From Alphaproteobacteria bacterium (GTDB taxonomy: Bacteria; Pseudomonadota; Alphaproteobacteria; Micropepsales; Micropepsaceae): DNA of 33,208 nucleotides. Below, piece after piece: positions 6,009 to 12,193 of this stretch (positions are counted from its first letter, which is position 1; every line of letters begins with the position of its first letter). The notes under the pieces were generated by a model, which was not told the origin of the DNA, made no database searches, and worked only from the letters and a program-made list of their open reading frames with translations. The stretch is from contig JAEUMK010000051.1 in assembly GCA_016792565.1 (NCBI GenBank), positions 1-33,208 on the forward strand, written 5' to 3'. Made by a program: the position numbers and the translations under genes.

Positions 6009-6401
6009 ATGGACGCCGGGATCATCATGCAAACCATCGAGGCGGTCGGCGCGCGCTGCGCCGACCCGGTGCCTCTGGTCTACGAACGGCTCTTCGCCGC
6101 GCATCCCGACTTCGCGCCGCTCTTCCGCAACGATCATTCGGGCGCGGCGCGCGGCCACATGTTCACCACGGCGATCGAAACCCTGATGGATCTGCTGGCG
6201 GACGACGCCTACGCCTCGCACATGCTCCAGGCCGAGCGGACCAACCATGCAAATCTTGGCGTCGCGACCGATCTCTTCACGGCCTTCTACGGCGCCACGG
6301 CCGAAGCCTTCCGCGACATTCTTGGACCCGACTGGACCGGCGAGGCGGACGCCGCCTGGCGCACCCTGATCGTCAGGATCGACGCGCTCTCCGCCGCCTG
6401 A
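6009..6401 (+). CDS. Single-domain globin-like protein
   Basis: 130-aa protein with the globin fold. The CD region shows HPDFAPLFRND (residues 32-42). His80 in ERTNHANLGV is the expected proximal F8 heme ligand, and helices G-H (LFTAFYGATAEAFRDILGPDWTGEADAAWRTLI) fit bacterial flavohemoglobin-type globins without the reductase domain. It would bind heme and could sense or detoxify O2, NO or peroxide; no specific activity can be assigned. No good Shine-Dalgarno site precedes the ATG at 6009. The ATG at 6027 (MQTIEAVG) is a plausible alternative start. It probably forms an operon with the four-Cys protein upstream and possibly the cupin downstream. Confidence 0.8.
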   Translation: MDAGIIMQTIEAVGARCADPVPLVYERLFAAHPDFAPLFRNDHSGAARGHMFTTAIETLMDLLADDAYASHMLQAERTNHANLGVATDLFTAFYGATAEAFRDILGPDWTGEADAAWRTLIVRIDALSAA

Positions 6402-6482
6402 CTCAGAGCGGTCGCCGCACGCCGCCAGGATCATCGTGGACGAACGCCCAGCGCGAACCTAGAAGTTGGAAAGGCTGAACGG

Positions 6483-6878
6483 ATGAAGGGTTTTGTCGGC
6501 GACATCGAGAAGCTCACCGAGGAGAATGGCGACTTTCGCCGGGTTCTCTACACCGGGCACAACCTTCAGCTGGTGCTCATGGCGATCCAGCCCGGCGATG
6601 AGATCGGCGAGGAAGTCCACGAGGATCGCGACCAGTTCTTCCGGATCGAGGGCGGCGAAGGCGAGGTGTGGATTGATGGCGTCTGCAACAAGGTGAAGGC
6701 GGATGACGGCATCGTCGTGCCGCAGGGCGCCCGCCACAACGTCGTCAGCACTGGAAGCGAGCCGCTCCGGCTCTATACGATCTACGGGCCGCCCGAACAT
6801 ATCGACGGCACGGTCCATGCGACCTGCGCCGAGGCCGCGCAGGCTCACGAGCACTTTGACGGAAAGACGACGGAATAG
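6483..6878 (+). CDS. Cupin-domain protein
   Basis: 131-aa single-domain cupin. Motif 1 is GDEIGEEVHEDRDQFFRIEGGEGEVWIDG (about residues 38-66), with Glu and His replacing the usual His-x-His pair. Motif 2 is IVVPQGARHNVVSTG (about 80-94), so metal binding is likely. Proteins like this are widespread in Proteobacteria and annotated only as cupins. Substrate and activity are unknown. It lies 81 bases after the globin gene on the same strand, within the redox-related stretch between katG and the peroxiredoxin. Confidence 0.85.
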   Translation: MKGFVGDIEKLTEENGDFRRVLYTGHNLQLVLMAIQPGDEIGEEVHEDRDQFFRIEGGEGEVWIDGVCNKVKADDGIVVPQGARHNVVSTGSEPLRLYTIYGPPEHIDGTVHATCAEAAQAHEHFDGKTTE

Positions 6879-6948
6879 CTTCGTCGCCGCCGATCGACGG
6901 GAAGGCGGCACCGGCCCGCCGCCCGCCGGGCATCCGAACCGGGGATCT

Positions 6949-6973
6949 GGCCGCCCCTCATCTGCAGGCGGCC
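6949..6973 (+). terminator. Small GC hairpin between cupin and peroxiredoxin genes
   Basis: GGCCGCC (6949-6955) and GGCGGCC (6967-6973) can pair around an 11-base loop, 71 bases after the cupin stop. It may be a weak terminator separating the cupin and peroxiredoxin transcripts. No U-tract follows. Confidence 0.3.
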
Positions 6974-7042
6974 CGGCGGCGTAGCTCCAGCGGACGGTGC
7001 GCCGTGCCGTCGTTGTCATGACCCAGCAAGGGGCGGCCCGCC

Positions 7043-7576
7043 ATGAACCGATCTGTCAGCCTGCTCGCCGTCGCCGCCTTCATGATCCTGCCGGCGCGGG
7101 CCGAGCTGGCGGTCGGCGCCGACGCGCCGGCCTTCACGGCGCCCGCGACGCTCGGCGGTAGCGAATTCACCTTCTCCCTTGCCGAGGCGTTGAAGTCCGG
7201 GCCGGTCGTGCTCTACTTCTATCCTGCCGCCTTCACGAAGGGCTGCACCATTGAGGCGCACGACTTCGCCGAGGCGACCGATGCCTTCAAGGCACTCGGC
7301 GCGACCGTGATCGGCGTCTCGGCCGACGACATCGCGACACTCAATGAGTTCTCGGTTTCGGAGTGCCGCAGCAAGTTCGCGGTCGCCTCCGACAGGGACC
7401 GGGCGATCATGACGGCCTACGATGCGGTGCTGGAGGCCAAGCCTGACCTCGCGGACCGCACCTCCTATGTCATCTCGCCCGAGGGCAAGATCCTCTTCGT
7501 TCACTCCGCACTCGACCCCACCGGCCATGTCGAGAAAACGATGGCGGCCGTCAAGACATGGCAGGCCTCACGTTGA
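7043..7576 (+). CDS. Exported peroxiredoxin (AhpC/TSA, BCP-like)
   Basis: 177-aa thiol peroxidase with an N-terminal signal peptide (MNRSVSLLAVAAFMILPARA, cleavage near residue 20), so it should act in the periplasm on hydrogen or organic peroxides. The peroxidatic Cys68 sits in FYPAAFTKGCTIEAHDF with the usual Thr three residues before it. Arg in ASDRDRAIM fits the active site. A second cysteine, Cys108 (SVSECRSKF), is a candidate resolving residue. The Cys five residues after the peroxidatic one in E. coli BCP is replaced by His. AGCAAGGGG precedes the ATG. The 3' end overlaps the convergent nrsF-like gene by 9 bases. Confidence 0.9.
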   Translation: MNRSVSLLAVAAFMILPARAELAVGADAPAFTAPATLGGSEFTFSLAEALKSGPVVLYFYPAAFTKGCTIEAHDFAEATDAFKALGATVIGVSADDIATLNEFSVSECRSKFAVASDRDRAIMTAYDAVLEAKPDLADRTSYVISPEGKILFVHSALDPTGHVEKTMAAVKTWQASR

Positions 7577-8236
7577 GGCCCTGAGCGCGCTGCGCCCTGC
7601 CGCGGCGCCCGATCCCGACGACAGCGCGACGATCAGCATCACCGCTGCGACGTGCCAGATGACGTCCATGATGCGGGCGTCGCCTTCGTGGAAAAGCTCC
7701 AGCGCCGCCGAGGCGAGCGAAGCGACCGCCAGCCCGCCCATCGCGGCCGTCTGGACGGGGCGGATCAGGCGGCCGTGGCGCAGCATCGCCAGCATCGGCA
7801 GTCCGACCAGAAGGCTGATGAGCACGATCGCCAGGAAGCAGTCGAACGCCTCGCCAAACTCCAGTCCAGCCGGTCCCTGCCGCAGCCACTCGGCATAGCA
7901 GCCGAGCCCGAGCCCAGAGGCCCAGAGCAGCGCCACCGGCAGCGGCAGCAGCGCCCAGCCGCGAGACGTGCCCGGGATCGCGAGGTGAAAGGCCGCATAG
8001 GTGGCGGCGACGCCGGTCGCCCCAGCGGCAAGAATCGACAGCCAGCCGCCAGGCTCGGCCAGCGCTTCGGCCAGACCGGGGCGAAGGCCATGATAGGCGA
8101 TGATGGCCGCCATCGCCGCCAGCGCGCCCAGCAGCCAGACCGTCGCGCGCAGGGCGGGCGGCGCCAGACGCCGCACCGGGCGGGCGTCCAGCGCCAGCCG
8201 CGCGATCAGGTCGTCCGTATCCAAGTCGCCGGCCAC
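7568..8236 (-). CDS. nrsF: NrsF-family (DUF1109) membrane anti-sigma factor
   Basis: 222-aa integral membrane protein with about six hydrophobic helices. The short N-terminal cytosolic segment (MAGDLDTDDLIARLALDARPVRRL) is the hallmark of DUF1109/NrsF proteins. In Caulobacter, NrsF holds the ECF sigma factor SigF at the membrane and releases it under chromate, cadmium or similar stress, with two conserved cysteines involved. Two cysteines are present here at 113 (LGCYAEW) and 133 (AFDCFLA), plausible sensing residues. It begins with GTG three bases after the sigma stop codon, so the two are translationally coupled. Its 3' end overlaps the convergent peroxiredoxin gene. Confidence 0.9.
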   Translation of the reverse strand: MAGDLDTDDLIARLALDARPVRRLAPPALRATVWLLGALAAMAAIIAYHGLRPGLAEALAEPGGWLSILAAGATGVAATYAAFHLAIPGTSRGWALLPLPVALLWASGLGLGCYAEWLRQGPAGLEFGEAFDCFLAIVLISLLVGLPMLAMLRHGRLIRPVQTAAMGGLAVASLASAALELFHEGDARIMDVIWHVAAVMLIVALSSGSGAAAGRSALRAST

Positions 8237-8239
8237 GGC

Positions 8240-8800
8240 CTACTCCTTCAATCCGCCGAAGCGGCGTCTCAGCGCCGCCACGGCCCGGTGCGTCGCAACC
8301 TTCAGCGAGCCGATCGACTGGCCGCTGATGGCCGAGGCTTCTGCAAGGGACAGTTCCTTCAACTTCGTCAGTTCCAGCGCGCTGCGCTGCGCGGCCGGCA
8401 GCGCGGCGATCGCCGCCTGCAGTTCCGCCGCCGTCAGCACGCCATCTGGCTTATTCGCCGCATCGCCATCGGAAGTTACTTCCGACGCCTCGTCCAGCGG
8501 GGCATGATACCCGGCCCGCCGCAGCGCGGTCAGTCTGTCCGAAATCCGGCGGCGGGCGATCGTCACCAGCCAAGGCCGGAACGGGCGCGAGGGATCGTAG
8601 GTCGCCCGCGCCTTGTGGATGGTCACCAGGATATCCTGCACCGCGTCTTCGGCGTCTTCCGACGTCGGCAGGCGGCGCCTGCAGAAACGCCGCAGAGGCA
8701 CCAGGAGTTCGCGCAGCAATTCGGCATAGCGCACGCGGTCTCCGTCCTGCGCCTCGCGCATGAACGCTCGCCAGCGCGCGTCGATGTCGTCGTCGATCAC
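8240..8800 (-). CDS. sigF: ECF sigma factor, SigF-like
   Basis: 186-aa extracytoplasmic-function sigma factor. Region 2 covers about residues 5-75, including AEDAVQDILVTIHKARATYDPSRPFRPWLVTIARRRI, where the DAVQD helix binds core polymerase. Region 4 is AAIAALPAAQRSALELTKLKELSLAEASAISGQSIGSLKVATHRA near the C-terminus. No ATG precedes region 2 within the plausible frame, so I choose GTG at 8800 (VIDDDIDARW). An ATG at 8761 would cut into region 2.1, and the much longer open frame to 9322 is antisense to bufA/bufB. It is coupled to the NrsF-like anti-sigma and divergent from the bufferin operon, its likely target. No GTAACC/CGAA promoter faces its own gene. Confidence 0.92.
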   Translation of the reverse strand: MIDDDIDARWRAFMREAQDGDRVRYAELLRELLVPLRRFCRRRLPTSEDAEDAVQDILVTIHKARATYDPSRPFRPWLVTIARRRISDRLTALRRAGYHAPLDEASEVTSDGDAANKPDGVLTAAELQAAIAALPAAQRSALELTKLKELSLAEASAISGQSIGSLKVATHRAVAALRRRFGGLKE

Positions 8801-8809
8801 GAAGCGACC

Positions 8810-8835
8810 GTAACCTTTCGGCGCAAGCGCGCGAA
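8810..8835 (+). promoter_or_regulatory. SigF-type ECF promoter of the bufferin operon
   Basis: GTAACC at 8810-8815 and CGAA at 8832-8835, with exactly 16 bases between, match the -35/-10 pair I recall for Caulobacter SigF-controlled promoters. The site faces bufA and lies between the divergent sigF and bufA genes, giving a leader of roughly 60 bases. The bases are seen directly; the matching consensus is from memory of the literature. Confidence 0.8.
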
Positions 8836-8905
8836 CTGCTCTTCGGAAGCGCCGCGAGCGGACGGTCCGACCGCGTCTTCCGCGCCATGAAATGGAGCAA
8901 ACCCC

Positions 8906-9169
8906 GTGAAAGTCCAGACCCTCGCCGCCCTTGCCATCGCCGCTGCCTTCGCTGCACCGGCCTTCGCCGAAGACATGCCCGCCTCGGACACGGCGAAGAA
9001 CGAGAAGTGCTACGGCGTCGCCAAGGCCGGCAGCAACGACTGCGCCTCGGCCGGCAACAATTCCTGCGCCGGCACCTCGAAGGCCGACGGCGACAAGACC
9101 GCCTGGATCTATGTTCCCGCCGGTCTCTGCACGAAGCTGGTCGGCGGCTCGCTCGAGCCGAAGGCCTGA
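8906..9169 (+). CDS. bufA: Bufferin precursor peptide BufA (DUF2282)
   Basis: 87-aa secreted Cys-rich peptide. A Sec signal peptide ends at AFA-ED (residues 19-23). The mature part has four cysteines: Cys35 ([10 protein letters not shown]), Cys46 (NDCAS), Cys54 (SCAGTSK) and Cys75 (GLCTK). This is the DUF2282 pattern. Such peptides are ribosomally made and modified on cysteines by a DUF692/MNIO enzyme; characterised bufferins bind copper and protect the periplasm. The start is GTG at 8906 with GGAG 8 bases upstream; initiation within the signal peptide fits. It is first in the operon, about 70 bases after the SigF-type promoter and 22 bases before bufB. The family call is firm; the metal bound by this peptide is not known. 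Confidence 0.93.
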
Positions 9170-9191
9170 GGCGATGCGGGAGGACGCCGCC

Positions 9192-10040
9192 ATGACCGGC
9201 CCGGAGCGAACCGAACCGTGGCGCCCCACCACGGGAATCGGCCTGCGCGCGCCCCTTATCGACGCCGTTCTGACCCTGCGTCCTCCCGCGCCTTTTCTCG
9301 AAGTCCACGCCGAGAACCACATGGGCGACGGCCGTGCCTTCCGTACGCTGGAGCGCGTGCGCGGCGACTATGCGGTCTCGCTTCACGGCGTTGGCCTGTC
9401 GCTCGGCAGTCCCGAACCGCCCGACGAGTGTCATCTGGCGCGCTTCGCGGAACTGGTGCGGCGCATCCAGCCGATGCTCGTCTCCGAGCATCTCTCCTGG
9501 TGCCGCAGCGGCGGCGTCTATCTCAACGACCTCCTGCCCATCCGCTACGACCGCGCTGCGCTCGATGCGATGGCGCGCAACGTCGACAGCGTTCAACAGG
9601 CCATCGGCCGCGCGCTGCTGATCGAAAACCCCTCGCGTTACCTCGATTGCGAGGGCGCCGAGATGCCCGAGACCGATTTCCTCGCCGCGCTCTGCCGCCG
9701 CACCGGCTGCGGCGTGCTGCTCGACGTCAACAACGTATATGTCTCCGCCCGCAATGCCGCCTTCGACCCGCAGGCCTGGCTTGCCGCATTGCCCGCCGAC
9801 CTGGTCGGCGAGTACCACCTCGCCGGACATGAGGCCGAGGGCGATGTTCTGATCGACACCCATGGCGAAGCCGTCCCGCCCGCCGTCTGGGCGCTCTACG
9901 CCGATGCCTTGCGCCGCTTCGGCCCCGCCCCGGCTCTGATCGAGCGCGACCGCAACATCCCGCCGCTCGACGCGCTGCTCGACGAGGCGGCGCAGGCGGA
10001 CCGGATTGCAGCTGCCGGAGTGTTCGCCCATGCAGCCTGA
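9192..10040 (+). CDS. bufB: MNIO-family bufferin maturase BufB (DUF692)
   Basis: 282-aa multinuclear non-heme iron oxidase of the DUF692 family with a TIM-barrel fold. In characterised bufferin systems it oxidises core cysteines of BufA to sulfur heterocycles. Expected metal ligands are visible: FLEVHAENHM (His39, His43), SLHGVGLSLG (His65), VSEHLSW (His100), IENPSRY (Glu145), LLDVNNVYVSA (Asp178, Asn180), EYHLAGH (His209, His213), IDTHGE (Asp222, His224) and ALIERD (Glu251). I start at the ATG at 9192, which has GGAGGA 8 bases upstream; the ATG at 9174 is a weaker alternative. The frame remains open far upstream across bufA but is not coding there. It overlaps bufC by 11 bases. Confidence 0.95.
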   Translation: MTGPERTEPWRPTTGIGLRAPLIDAVLTLRPPAPFLEVHAENHMGDGRAFRTLERVRGDYAVSLHGVGLSLGSPEPPDECHLARFAELVRRIQPMLVSEHLSWCRSGGVYLNDLLPIRYDRAALDAMARNVDSVQQAIGRALLIENPSRYLDCEGAEMPETDFLAALCRRTGCGVLLDVNNVYVSARNAAFDPQAWLAALPADLVGEYHLAGHEAEGDVLIDTHGEAVPPAVWALYADALRRFGPAPALIERDRNIPPLDALLDEAAQADRIAAAGVFAHAA

Positions 10041-10752
10041 ACTCCAGAGCCGCATGACGCAGGCGATCCGCGACGCTGCGGGCCAGGCGACGGCCGTGCC
10101 GTCCGCCGTCGCGGGCCTCAACCCGCCGGAGCGCCTGGCGATCCATGTGCGCAATTTCCGCTCGAGCCTCACCGAGGCGCTGGCTGCTGCCTTTCCCGCG
10201 ACCCGCCGCCAGACCGGCGAGGGTTTCTTCGCCTATGTCGCCGCTCAGTTCATCGCCGCAGCCCCTCCGGACGATCCCATCGTCGCCCTCTACGGCGGCG
10301 GCTTTGCGGACTTTCTCGCCGTCTTTCCGCCACTCGTGGCCTATCCTTGGCTGCCTGATCTCGCCCGCTTCGAATGGGCATTGCACAGCCTCAGCGACGC
10401 CCTTCCGCCGCCTGCTCCTGACGCGCCTGGCGAGAGCGGCGACGCGCGCGTCGGATGGAGCGACTCGGCGAGGCTCGTCGGTTCGGACTGGGCGATCGAT
10501 CGCCTTCTCGATGAGGACGAAGCCGCACTTGAACGGAAGCCGACGCACCTTCTGGTGCACGCCGCCGCCGACGCCGTTGTCAGCGTGACCCTGGCGCCGG
10601 CCGCCTTCGCCTTCCTGAAGGCGCTTCAGGACGGCCGCCCGCTCAGCGCCGCCATCGGCGCCGCTCTCGCCCATGACGGCGCCTTCGACGCCGCCGCAAC
10701 GCTGCGTCTGGCCCTCCGGCGAGGCTGCATCGCCGCCTTCCGCCCACTCTAA
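10030..10752 (+). CDS. bufC: Bufferin partner protein BufC (DUF2063)
   Basis: 240-aa protein with an N-terminal DUF2063 domain (about residues 5-100: RLAIHVRNFRSSLTEALAAAFPATRR, FFAYVAAQFIAAAPP, VAYPWLPDLARFEWALHSL) and a C-terminal region that likely contributes precursor recognition. DUF2063 proteins pair with DUF692 enzymes and are thought to present the precursor peptide to the MNIO enzyme, acting like a RiPP recognition element. The ATG at 10030 lies inside bufB, with GGAG about 9 bases upstream, so the two are translationally coupled and probably made in equal amounts. The longer open frame upstream is bufB sequence. Confidence 0.93.
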   Translation: MQPELQSRMTQAIRDAAGQATAVPSAVAGLNPPERLAIHVRNFRSSLTEALAAAFPATRRQTGEGFFAYVAAQFIAAAPPDDPIVALYGGGFADFLAVFPPLVAYPWLPDLARFEWALHSLSDALPPPAPDAPGESGDARVGWSDSARLVGSDWAIDRLLDEDEAALERKPTHLLVHAAADAVVSVTLAPAAFAFLKALQDGRPLSAAIGAALAHDGAFDAAATLRLALRRGCIAAFRPL

Positions 10753-10765
10753 GGACCCTTACCCG

Positions 10766-11227
10766 ATGACCGATCGAGCCGCCGGCCCCGGCCTTCTCAC
10801 GCGTCTCCATGCGCTCCTGGCGACCGCCGTTCCCCTGTCCCTGATTCTCCTATCGGCTCGGGTCGGCATCGCGGGCGTCTTCTTCAAGTCGGGCCTCACC
10901 AAGGTCGATGGCGACTGGCAGGTGACCGATCTGGCGATCATACTGTTTCGCGAGGAGTACAAGGTGCCGCTCCTGCCGCCGGAGCTTGCCGCCCATCTGG
11001 GCGCCTATACCGAGCTGACGATGCCGGTGCTGCTGGCGATCGGTCTCTTCAGCCGCTTCGCGGCCCTGCCCTTGCTCGGCATGACCGCGGTCATCGGGCT
11101 GTTCATCTACCCGGCCGCCTGGGACACCCATCTCACCTGGGCCGCGCTGCTGCTTCTGATCATCGCCCGCGGCCCCGGCCTCGTCTCGCTCGACGCCCTC
11201 TTGGGCCTCGACCGGGCGTCGCGCTGA
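10766..11227 (+). CDS. DoxX-family membrane protein of the bufferin operon
   Basis: 153-aa inner-membrane protein of the DoxX family with four predicted helices: LSLILLSARVGIAGVFFKSGLTKV, a segment near LTMPVLLAIGLFSRF, LPLLGMTAVIGLFIYP and WAALLLLIIARGPGLVSLD. A DoxX member regularly follows DUF692-DUF2063 genes in bufferin/gig operons (gigD in gold- and copper-induced systems). It may pass electrons or help handle the thiol-modified peptide at the membrane, but its role is unproven. The ATG at 10766 follows AAGGA and lies 13 bases after the bufC stop, so they are cotranscribed. Confidence 0.88.
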   Translation: MTDRAAGPGLLTRLHALLATAVPLSLILLSARVGIAGVFFKSGLTKVDGDWQVTDLAIILFREEYKVPLLPPELAAHLGAYTELTMPVLLAIGLFSRFAALPLLGMTAVIGLFIYPAAWDTHLTWAALLLLIIARGPGLVSLDALLGLDRASR

Positions 11228-11335
11228 GTAGCGACGCATTGCCTCGCAGGCCCACTGGCCGATTGCATCGGCGGTCCGGTCGGACAAGATGACGCTTGGG
11301 AGTGCGCCGCGGGGGGGCGGCGCCGGTGAGGGCGC

Positions 11336-12193
11336 ATGAGGTTTGTCCTGTCCTGTCTGTGGTGGCCGGTGCTGATGACCGGCGCCATCGCGATCAACGC
11401 CTATGGCATGACCACCGGCACGCCATTGCTCTGGCTGAACGTCAGCTATTTCTCGCTGGCACTCGCCATCTTCGCGCTTGAACGTGCCATGCCGCATGAA
11501 CGGGCCTGGCTTGCCAATGACGGCCAGATCTGGGCCGATCTCGGCCACACCTTGCTCAGCAAGTCGGCCGTCCAGGTGCTCATCGTGGTGCCCGCCCTCG
11601 CCGGACTTGAGGGCGAAGCGCTCGCTTCCGGTGCCGCCTGGTGGCCGCGCCACTGGCCGCTCGCGGCGCAGGCCGCCCTCGGCCTGCTGATCGCCGAGTT
11701 CGGCTTCTATTGGGCGCACCGTCTCTCGCACGAGGTGGCGACGCTCTGGCGCTTCCATGCGGTGCACCACTCCGTCACGCGGCTGTGGTTCTTCAACACC
11801 GGGCGCTTCCATTTCGTCGACACGCTGCTCAGCGTCTCGTTCGGCCTCGCCGTCGGTCTGGCGGCGGGCGTGCCGCAGGAGATCATCATCTGGGTCAGCG
11901 CGATCACCGCCTATATCGGCCTCCTGACCCACTGCAACATCGAGATGCGGACCGGGCCGCTGAACTACCTCTTCAACACCCCCGGCCTTCACCGCTGGCA
12001 TCACTCCAAGCGGCCGGACGAAGGCAACACCAACTACGGCGAGAACCTCGTCGTCTTCGATCTTCTGTTCGGGACCTTTCTCAATCCCCGGCGCCGGCCG
12101 CCCGCCGATATCGGCATCGCGGATCCGATGCCGGCGACGCTGGGCGGGCAGATCCTCTACCCCTTCCGCCGCGCCGCCGCTTCGCAGGGCTGA
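11336..12193 (+). CDS. Membrane fatty-acid hydroxylase / sterol-desaturase family protein
   Basis: 285-aa integral membrane di-iron enzyme of the FA_hydroxylase superfamily. All three histidine clusters are present: HRLSH (HX3H), HAVHH (HX2HH) and HRWHH (HX2HH), in the order and spacing typical of C-4/C-5 sterol desaturases, carotenoid and lipid hydroxylases. At least four hydrophobic helices surround them. It should use O2 and a reductant to hydroxylate or desaturate a lipid, but the substrate is not evident. It starts 108 bases after the DoxX gene, on the same strand and with GAGG before its ATG. No terminator is seen in the gap, so it could be a fifth gene of the bufferin operon. It converges on the SDR gene with a 30-base gap. 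Confidence 0.92.
   Translation: MRFVLSCLWWPVLMTGAIAINAYGMTTGTPLLWLNVSYFSLALAIFALERAMPHERAWLANDGQIWADLGHTLLSKSAVQVLIVVPALAGLEGEALASGAAWWPRHWPLAAQAALGLLIAEFGFYWAHRLSHEVATLWRFHAVHHSVTRLWFFNTGRFHFVDTLLSVSFGLAVGLAAGVPQEIIIWVSAITAYIGLLTHCNIEMRTGPLNYLFNTPGLHRWHHSKRPDEGNTNYGENLVVFDLLFGTFLNPRRRPPADIGIADPMPATLGGQILYPFRRAAASQG

Follow-up and report, generated by a model that had tools for sequence, protein, structure and literature searches.

Six genes arranged as two divergent operons form the subject of this analysis; they lie in a 33,208-nucleotide stretch of contig JAEUMK010000051.1 (hereafter the window) from an alphaproteobacterium of the family Micropepsaceae. On the plus strand, bufA (8906..9169), encoding a predicted type-1 bufferin precursor of 87 aa, is followed after 4 nt by bufB (9174..10040), encoding a multinuclear non-haem iron oxidative enzyme (MNIO). 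The latter overlaps by 11 nt with bufC (10030..10752), the gene for the DUF2063 partner protein of the MNIO, and doxX (10766..11227), which encodes a membrane protein and is the final gene of the conserved operon, begins 13 nt further on. On the minus strand, a gene for a SigF-like extracytoplasmic function (ECF) sigma factor of 186 aa (8240..8800, with a presumed GTG start at 8800) lies upstream of nrsF (7568..8236), from which it is separated by 3 nt and which encodes a six-helix DUF1109 anti-sigma factor of 222 aa. Judged against the curated cut-offs of Pfam, all six families of the locus were recovered: DUF2282 for BufA (83.5 bits, cut-off 22.4), MbnB_TglH_ChrH, formerly DUF692, for BufB (333.3, cut-off 25), DUF2063 for BufC (73.7, cut-off 27.2), DoxX (59.8, cut-off 23.6), NrsF (PF06532; 99.3, cut-off 26.8), and, for the sigma factor, Sigma70_r2 (61.9, cut-off 24) and Sigma70_r4_2 (36.6, cut-off 25.7). 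Together, the four plus-strand genes constitute a full type-1 bufferin cluster, bufA-bufB-bufC-doxX, divergent from the ECF sigma factor and NrsF genes. Coordinates and profile scores bear out the original prediction of a tight DUF2282/DUF692/DUF2063/DoxX operon facing such a pair, and the profile search it had proposed returned every family named. Across the 3.07 Mb genome, which a split alpha-type transfer-messenger RNA marks as alphaproteobacterial, one MNIO gene and one NrsF gene were found, both at this locus.

BufA starts at a GTG at 8906 and carries a Sec signal peptide ending in AFA, followed by EDM, and exactly four cysteines, at positions 35, 46, 54 and 75; a signal sequence and four cysteines had been noted at the outset. 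Since it reached only 27.4 bits against the BufA2 (bufferin type 2) model, with a cut-off of 60, and passes the DUF2282 model by a wide margin, its sequence assigns it to the type-1 bufferins. NCBIfam models were judged against their own cut-offs; BufB exceeded that of MNIO_BufB (344.2 bits, cut-off 310), and BufC fell under that of the HvfC model. When aligned to solved MNIO enzymes (3BWW, TglH, and MbnB), BufB was found to retain the histidine, glutamate, aspartate, and asparagine motifs.

Between the two operons, a SigF-type bufA promoter is predicted on the plus strand at 8810..8835, where GTAACC (8810-8815) and CGAA (8832-8835) reproduce the Caulobacter SigF consensus GTAACC-N16-CGAA (PMC3511200). 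This is the one exact match in the window, against 0.03 expected from shuffling; it starts 96 nt upstream of bufA and is the sole N16 match in the genome. A spacer of N17 gave two further genome matches, which is chance level, as a reversed control pattern also gave two. Because the -35 element begins 10 bp upstream of the sigma factor start codon, both transcription units share a compact region of 105 bp. The bufA transcript is predicted to start 7–9 nt past CGAA, about 64 nt before the gene, and the start measured for Caulobacter bufA lies 61 nt before it (PMC3511200). Autoregulation of the sigma factor gene is not indicated, as no exact SigF site facing that gene was found in the window.

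Studies of anti-sigma factors of this type have centered on two cysteines, with either a metal or an oxidant as the possible signal. In Caulobacter NrsF, replacing either Cys131 or Cys181 raised basal expression (PMC3511200), and Bradyrhizobium OsrA required Cys129 to retain the sigma factor and Cys179 to respond to H2O2 (PMC3420878). The NrsF of the window departs from this two-cysteine arrangement: the first conserved cysteine is kept as Cys133, and the second is replaced by His183, which sequence comparison identifies as homologous to OsrA Cys179. The distance of 50 residues between Cys133 and His183 matches that of the OsrA and Caulobacter pairs. In addition, the protein has gained a cysteine, Cys113, and lost one residue ahead of Cys133, and it scored 39.2 bits against the Caulobacter-like NCBIfam equivalog AntiSigF_NrsF (NF042994), for which the cut-off is 300. 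A simple hydropathy prediction, with the N-terminus inside, places Cys113, Cys133 and His183 where helices 3, 4 and 5 meet the periplasm. Hereafter, NrsF proteins with Cys and His at the two sensor positions are termed C/H-type, and those that also have the extra cysteine C/C/H-type.

These residues are strongly conserved within the family. Among 20 C/H-type sequences 30–66% identical to the window protein, Cys133 and His183 occurred in all 20 and Cys113 in 19; members of the C/H clade without Cys113 are those of loci L070, L215 and L223. A tree of 126 NrsF proteins, of which a single class supplied all but one, placed 48 C/H-type proteins and one other on one deep branch (support 100/98), to which the window protein belongs, and nearly all Cys/Cys proteins outside it; the three residue columns were kept in the tree, a small bias. 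An even draw across the class found Cys/His at the two sensor positions in 28 of 60 NrsF proteins, nearly all with the extra cysteine. Five plasmid-borne NrsF proteins from named beta- and alphaproteobacteria were all of the C/C/H type, and as they were found with the window protein as query, they speak to spread rather than to frequency. With near-invariant residues, one supported branch, and spread to plasmids, the C/C/H form is an old and stable variant. No description of it was found in the literature searched, from which subscription papers were mostly absent, and the clade is apparently an unstudied branch of NrsF. Other departures from the cysteine pair were also observed. In L182, L183, L184, L186 and L190, which form a separate branch, the first cysteine is kept and glutamate occupies the second position; L183 adjoins a bufferin cluster. 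In L080 and L041, alanine replaces the near-invariant first cysteine and the second is kept, and close to L080 is an unusual bufA in which CKGQ-like motifs are repeated.

Linkage between NrsF and bufferin genes is common among relatives. In the family of the window's genome, an NrsF gene, mostly in divergent orientation, lies no more than 5 kb from the MNIO gene at about 15 of 27 loci, and within its genus one other species has both MNIO and NrsF genes and three species have neither. We considered whether C/C/H proteins are confined to bufferin loci. Within the family, such an association seemed strong (12/20 versus 3/43, p ~1e-5), but a single genus, whose Cys/Cys copies stand alone, dominated the result, which was therefore set aside; in the class-wide sample, a BufB gene lay within 5 kb of the NrsF gene in 11 of 28 cases for the C/H type and in 11 of 26 for the Cys/Cys type (p = 1.0). 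The C/C/H variant is not bufferin-specific, and both NrsF types drive bufferin operons. An exact promoter motif (N15-17) lay up to 450 nt upstream of bufA at 17 of 26 C/H-type loci and at 2 of 16 Cys/Cys loci. Where C/C/H proteins occur without bufferins, their neighbors are mixed and favor neither a metal nor an oxidant signal; they include a YHS-domain protein, a DUF1223 protein, a cysteine-rich cytochrome P460-like protein, a heavy-metal ATPase, and a secreted methionine-sulfoxide reductase whose gene follows a SigF motif. For instance, in one genus of the family (L093, L094, L095, L099 and L100), the C/C/H sigma/anti-sigma pair adjoins a secreted YHS-domain protein, with no bufferin cluster there. 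At L207, a secreted cysteine-rich (NPC-repeat) cytochrome P460-domain protein (6020-7087) is encoded divergently from a C/C/H sigma/NrsF pair, behind a GTAACC motif. Separately, BufB relatives were recorded in 355 records of the plasmid collection, including 73 from Escherichia, 18 from Klebsiella, and 8 from Salmonella.

The chemistry of characterized bufferins bears on what the operon does. In type-1 bufferins, the two central cysteines are modified, the outer two form a disulfide, and the resulting thiooxazoles bind periplasmic copper; copper is also the metal on which bufferins of reported function act (PMC12452194, PMC12668002). In Caulobacter, the SigF regulon is induced by copper and a sigF::Tn5 mutant is copper-sensitive (PMC8224329), whereas deletion of sigF brought no added sensitivity to chromium or cadmium (PMC3511200). 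Together with the retained BufB motifs, these data make copper protection the most likely role of the window operon, and by analogy with the characterized bufferins, BufA would be modified and bind copper. That the peptide instead handles gold, silver, cadmium, or an oxidant is quite unlikely: relatives in Cupriavidus were named gold-induced genes and Caulobacter targets respond to chromium and cadmium (PMC3511200, PMC12452194, PMC8224329), yet neither the copper activity of the functionally reported bufferins nor the selective loss of copper tolerance without sigF fits such a role well.

Taken whole, the locus is very probably a self-contained, copper-buffering type-1 bufferin operon controlled by an ECF sigma/anti-sigma switch of its own, as suggested by the family matches, the promoter match, the similar leader length, the six-gene order shared with relatives and plasmids, the type-1 bufferin chemistry, the Caulobacter copper data, and the conservation and spacing of the NrsF residues. 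NrsF would tether the sigma factor to the inner membrane until Cys113, Cys133 and His183 are acted on from the periplasm, the likeliest signal being an excess of copper or a different soft metal. The sigma factor, once released by NrsF, would recognize GTAACC-N16-CGAA upstream of bufA and switch on bufABC-doxX. BufB and BufC would then convert Cys46 and Cys54 of BufA into thiooxazoles ahead of Sec export, a Cys35-Cys75 disulfide would form, and mature BufA would bind copper in the periplasm. Homology, promoter, and synteny uphold the families and the modified, metal-binding periplasmic peptide of the original prediction; the Caulobacter-like sensing of a metal or oxidant that accompanied them stands as an analogy.

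The sensing step itself is less certain than the scheme as a whole. On sequence grounds, the Caulobacter-type signal cannot be directly transferred to the window protein, because the precedents in Caulobacter, Bradyrhizobium and Brucella are all Cys/Cys and the signal residue of OsrA is a histidine here; we infer the identity of the window's signal by analogy. The Cys-Cys-His trio resembles a soft-metal site. Such a site agrees with the copper-buffering nature of the operon and with a histidine that does not vary, and we tentatively propose that Cys113, Cys133 and His183 form a remodelled metal-sensing site. It is conceivable, and doubtful in our estimation, that the C/C/H clade constitutes a distinct class of membrane anti-sigma factors whose periplasmic face directly binds Cu(I) or a similar soft metal. 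If true, a metal-ligand sensor would stand against the thiol switch of the studied Cys/Cys clade, and bufferin operons would be wired to two kinds of input. Several observations weigh against the overall scheme: C/C/H proteins adjoin a secreted MsrA at L222, which points to oxidative damage, and a DUF1223 protein at L226, which points to other functions, such that oxidant sensing is possible; in S. meliloti, neither H2O2 nor cadmium nor chromate induced RpoE7, which belongs to a bufferin locus (PMC6180224); and an AlphaFold model of NrsF from a single sequence reached a predicted local distance difference test (pLDDT) score of 53, too low to judge whether the three residues meet.

The protein may alternatively remain a thiol redox switch in which Cys113 replaces the lost cysteine, a periplasmic Cys113-Cys133 disulfide forms under oxidant, and His183 tunes reactivity or is structural. 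Both cysteines lie at the predicted periplasmic face and co-occur in nearly all clade members, OsrA responds to H2O2 (PMC3420878), and some C/C/H loci adjoin a methionine-sulfoxide reductase or, as in the window, a secreted peroxiredoxin. Nevertheless, a two-cysteine switch has no need of His183, which is conserved like the cysteines, and three C/H members of the clade lack Cys113; moreover, generators of reactive oxygen species failed to induce the Caulobacter SigF targets (PMC3511200). We regard this switch as less likely than not, though close in probability to the metal site. The residue difference might also be neutral, with the switch working as in Caulobacter, as the similar class-wide rates at which both types accompany otherwise identical bufferin loci would allow. 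This is unlikely, given that the gain of Cys113, the cysteine-to-histidine swap, and the one-residue deletion before Cys133 are fixed in a deep clade and that OsrA cannot respond without the residue swapped here (PMC3420878). A soft-metal site is our tentatively preferred account of the sensor.

The genes flanking the cluster were also considered. The secreted peroxiredoxin gene (7043..7576, plus strand; Pfam AhpC-TSA) is convergent with nrsF, with a 3' overlap of 9 nt, and the same pair occurs in the closest relative, the sister species of locus L069 (65% identity), where the full run from peroxiredoxin to OlsE is kept; the peroxiredoxin could be functionally tied to the switch. Downstream of doxX, an OlsE-like fatty-acid hydroxylase gene (11336..12193, plus strand; Pfam FA_hydroxylase) scored 353 bits against NCBIfam OlsE, under the cut-off of 475, and among the loci examined lies beside doxX only in the window and in the same sister species (72% identity). 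As both genes are common to one sister species only, they were left out of the cluster. The span of 7568-12193 originally given for the cluster contains real bufferin and sigma factor genes, but its end takes in this neighboring OlsE-like gene. At the start of the window, a tyrosine-recombinase integrase gene (21-1268; Arm-DNA-binding, core, and catalytic domains) is a possible mark of the edge of a mobile island.

The window operon is one more member of a large published family, and its sensor is the part worth specialist attention. Since Cys/Cys and Cys/His NrsF proteins share a promoter motif and often a copper-buffer operon, they offer a natural comparison of two sensor chemistries, with named residues to mutate. 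Sigma-70 and NrsF genes have already been listed as frequent MNIO neighbors in bufferin clusters (PMC12452194). The architecture itself is that of Caulobacter CC3252-CC3257, which comprises sigF-nrsF and a DUF2282-DUF692-DUF2063-DoxX operon controlled by SigF (PMC3511200) in a regulon induced by copper, chromate, and cadmium (PMC3511200, PMC8224329). The two loci share the same six genes in two operons, the promoter motif, and a similar predicted leader length; they differ in that the Caulobacter regulon includes a second bufferin cluster and MsrPQ, whereas searches of the window's genome returned a single exact N16 site and a single MNIO gene. Six-helix DUF1109 anti-sigma factors are likewise coupled to ECF16-type sigma factors in the ECF16 pairs OsrA/EcfF of Bradyrhizobium and AbcS/BcrS of Brucella, but OsrA and the Brucella protein have Cys129 and Cys179, the latter being histidine in the window. 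The same sensor type is also found on plasmids: clusters on pSYMBR3459 of Paraburkholderia phenoliruptrix, pB1701 of Burkholderia contaminans, and plasmid 3 of Nitrobacter hamburgensis have the six genes, the divergent arrangement, the promoter motif, and a C/C/H NrsF, and differ in their plasmid location and in extra small genes at their edges (thioredoxin, TlpA, and a GDCCVxC protein). The architecture, recurring in alphaproteobacteria and on proteobacterial plasmids, is already known; what is new in the locus is the type of its NrsF.

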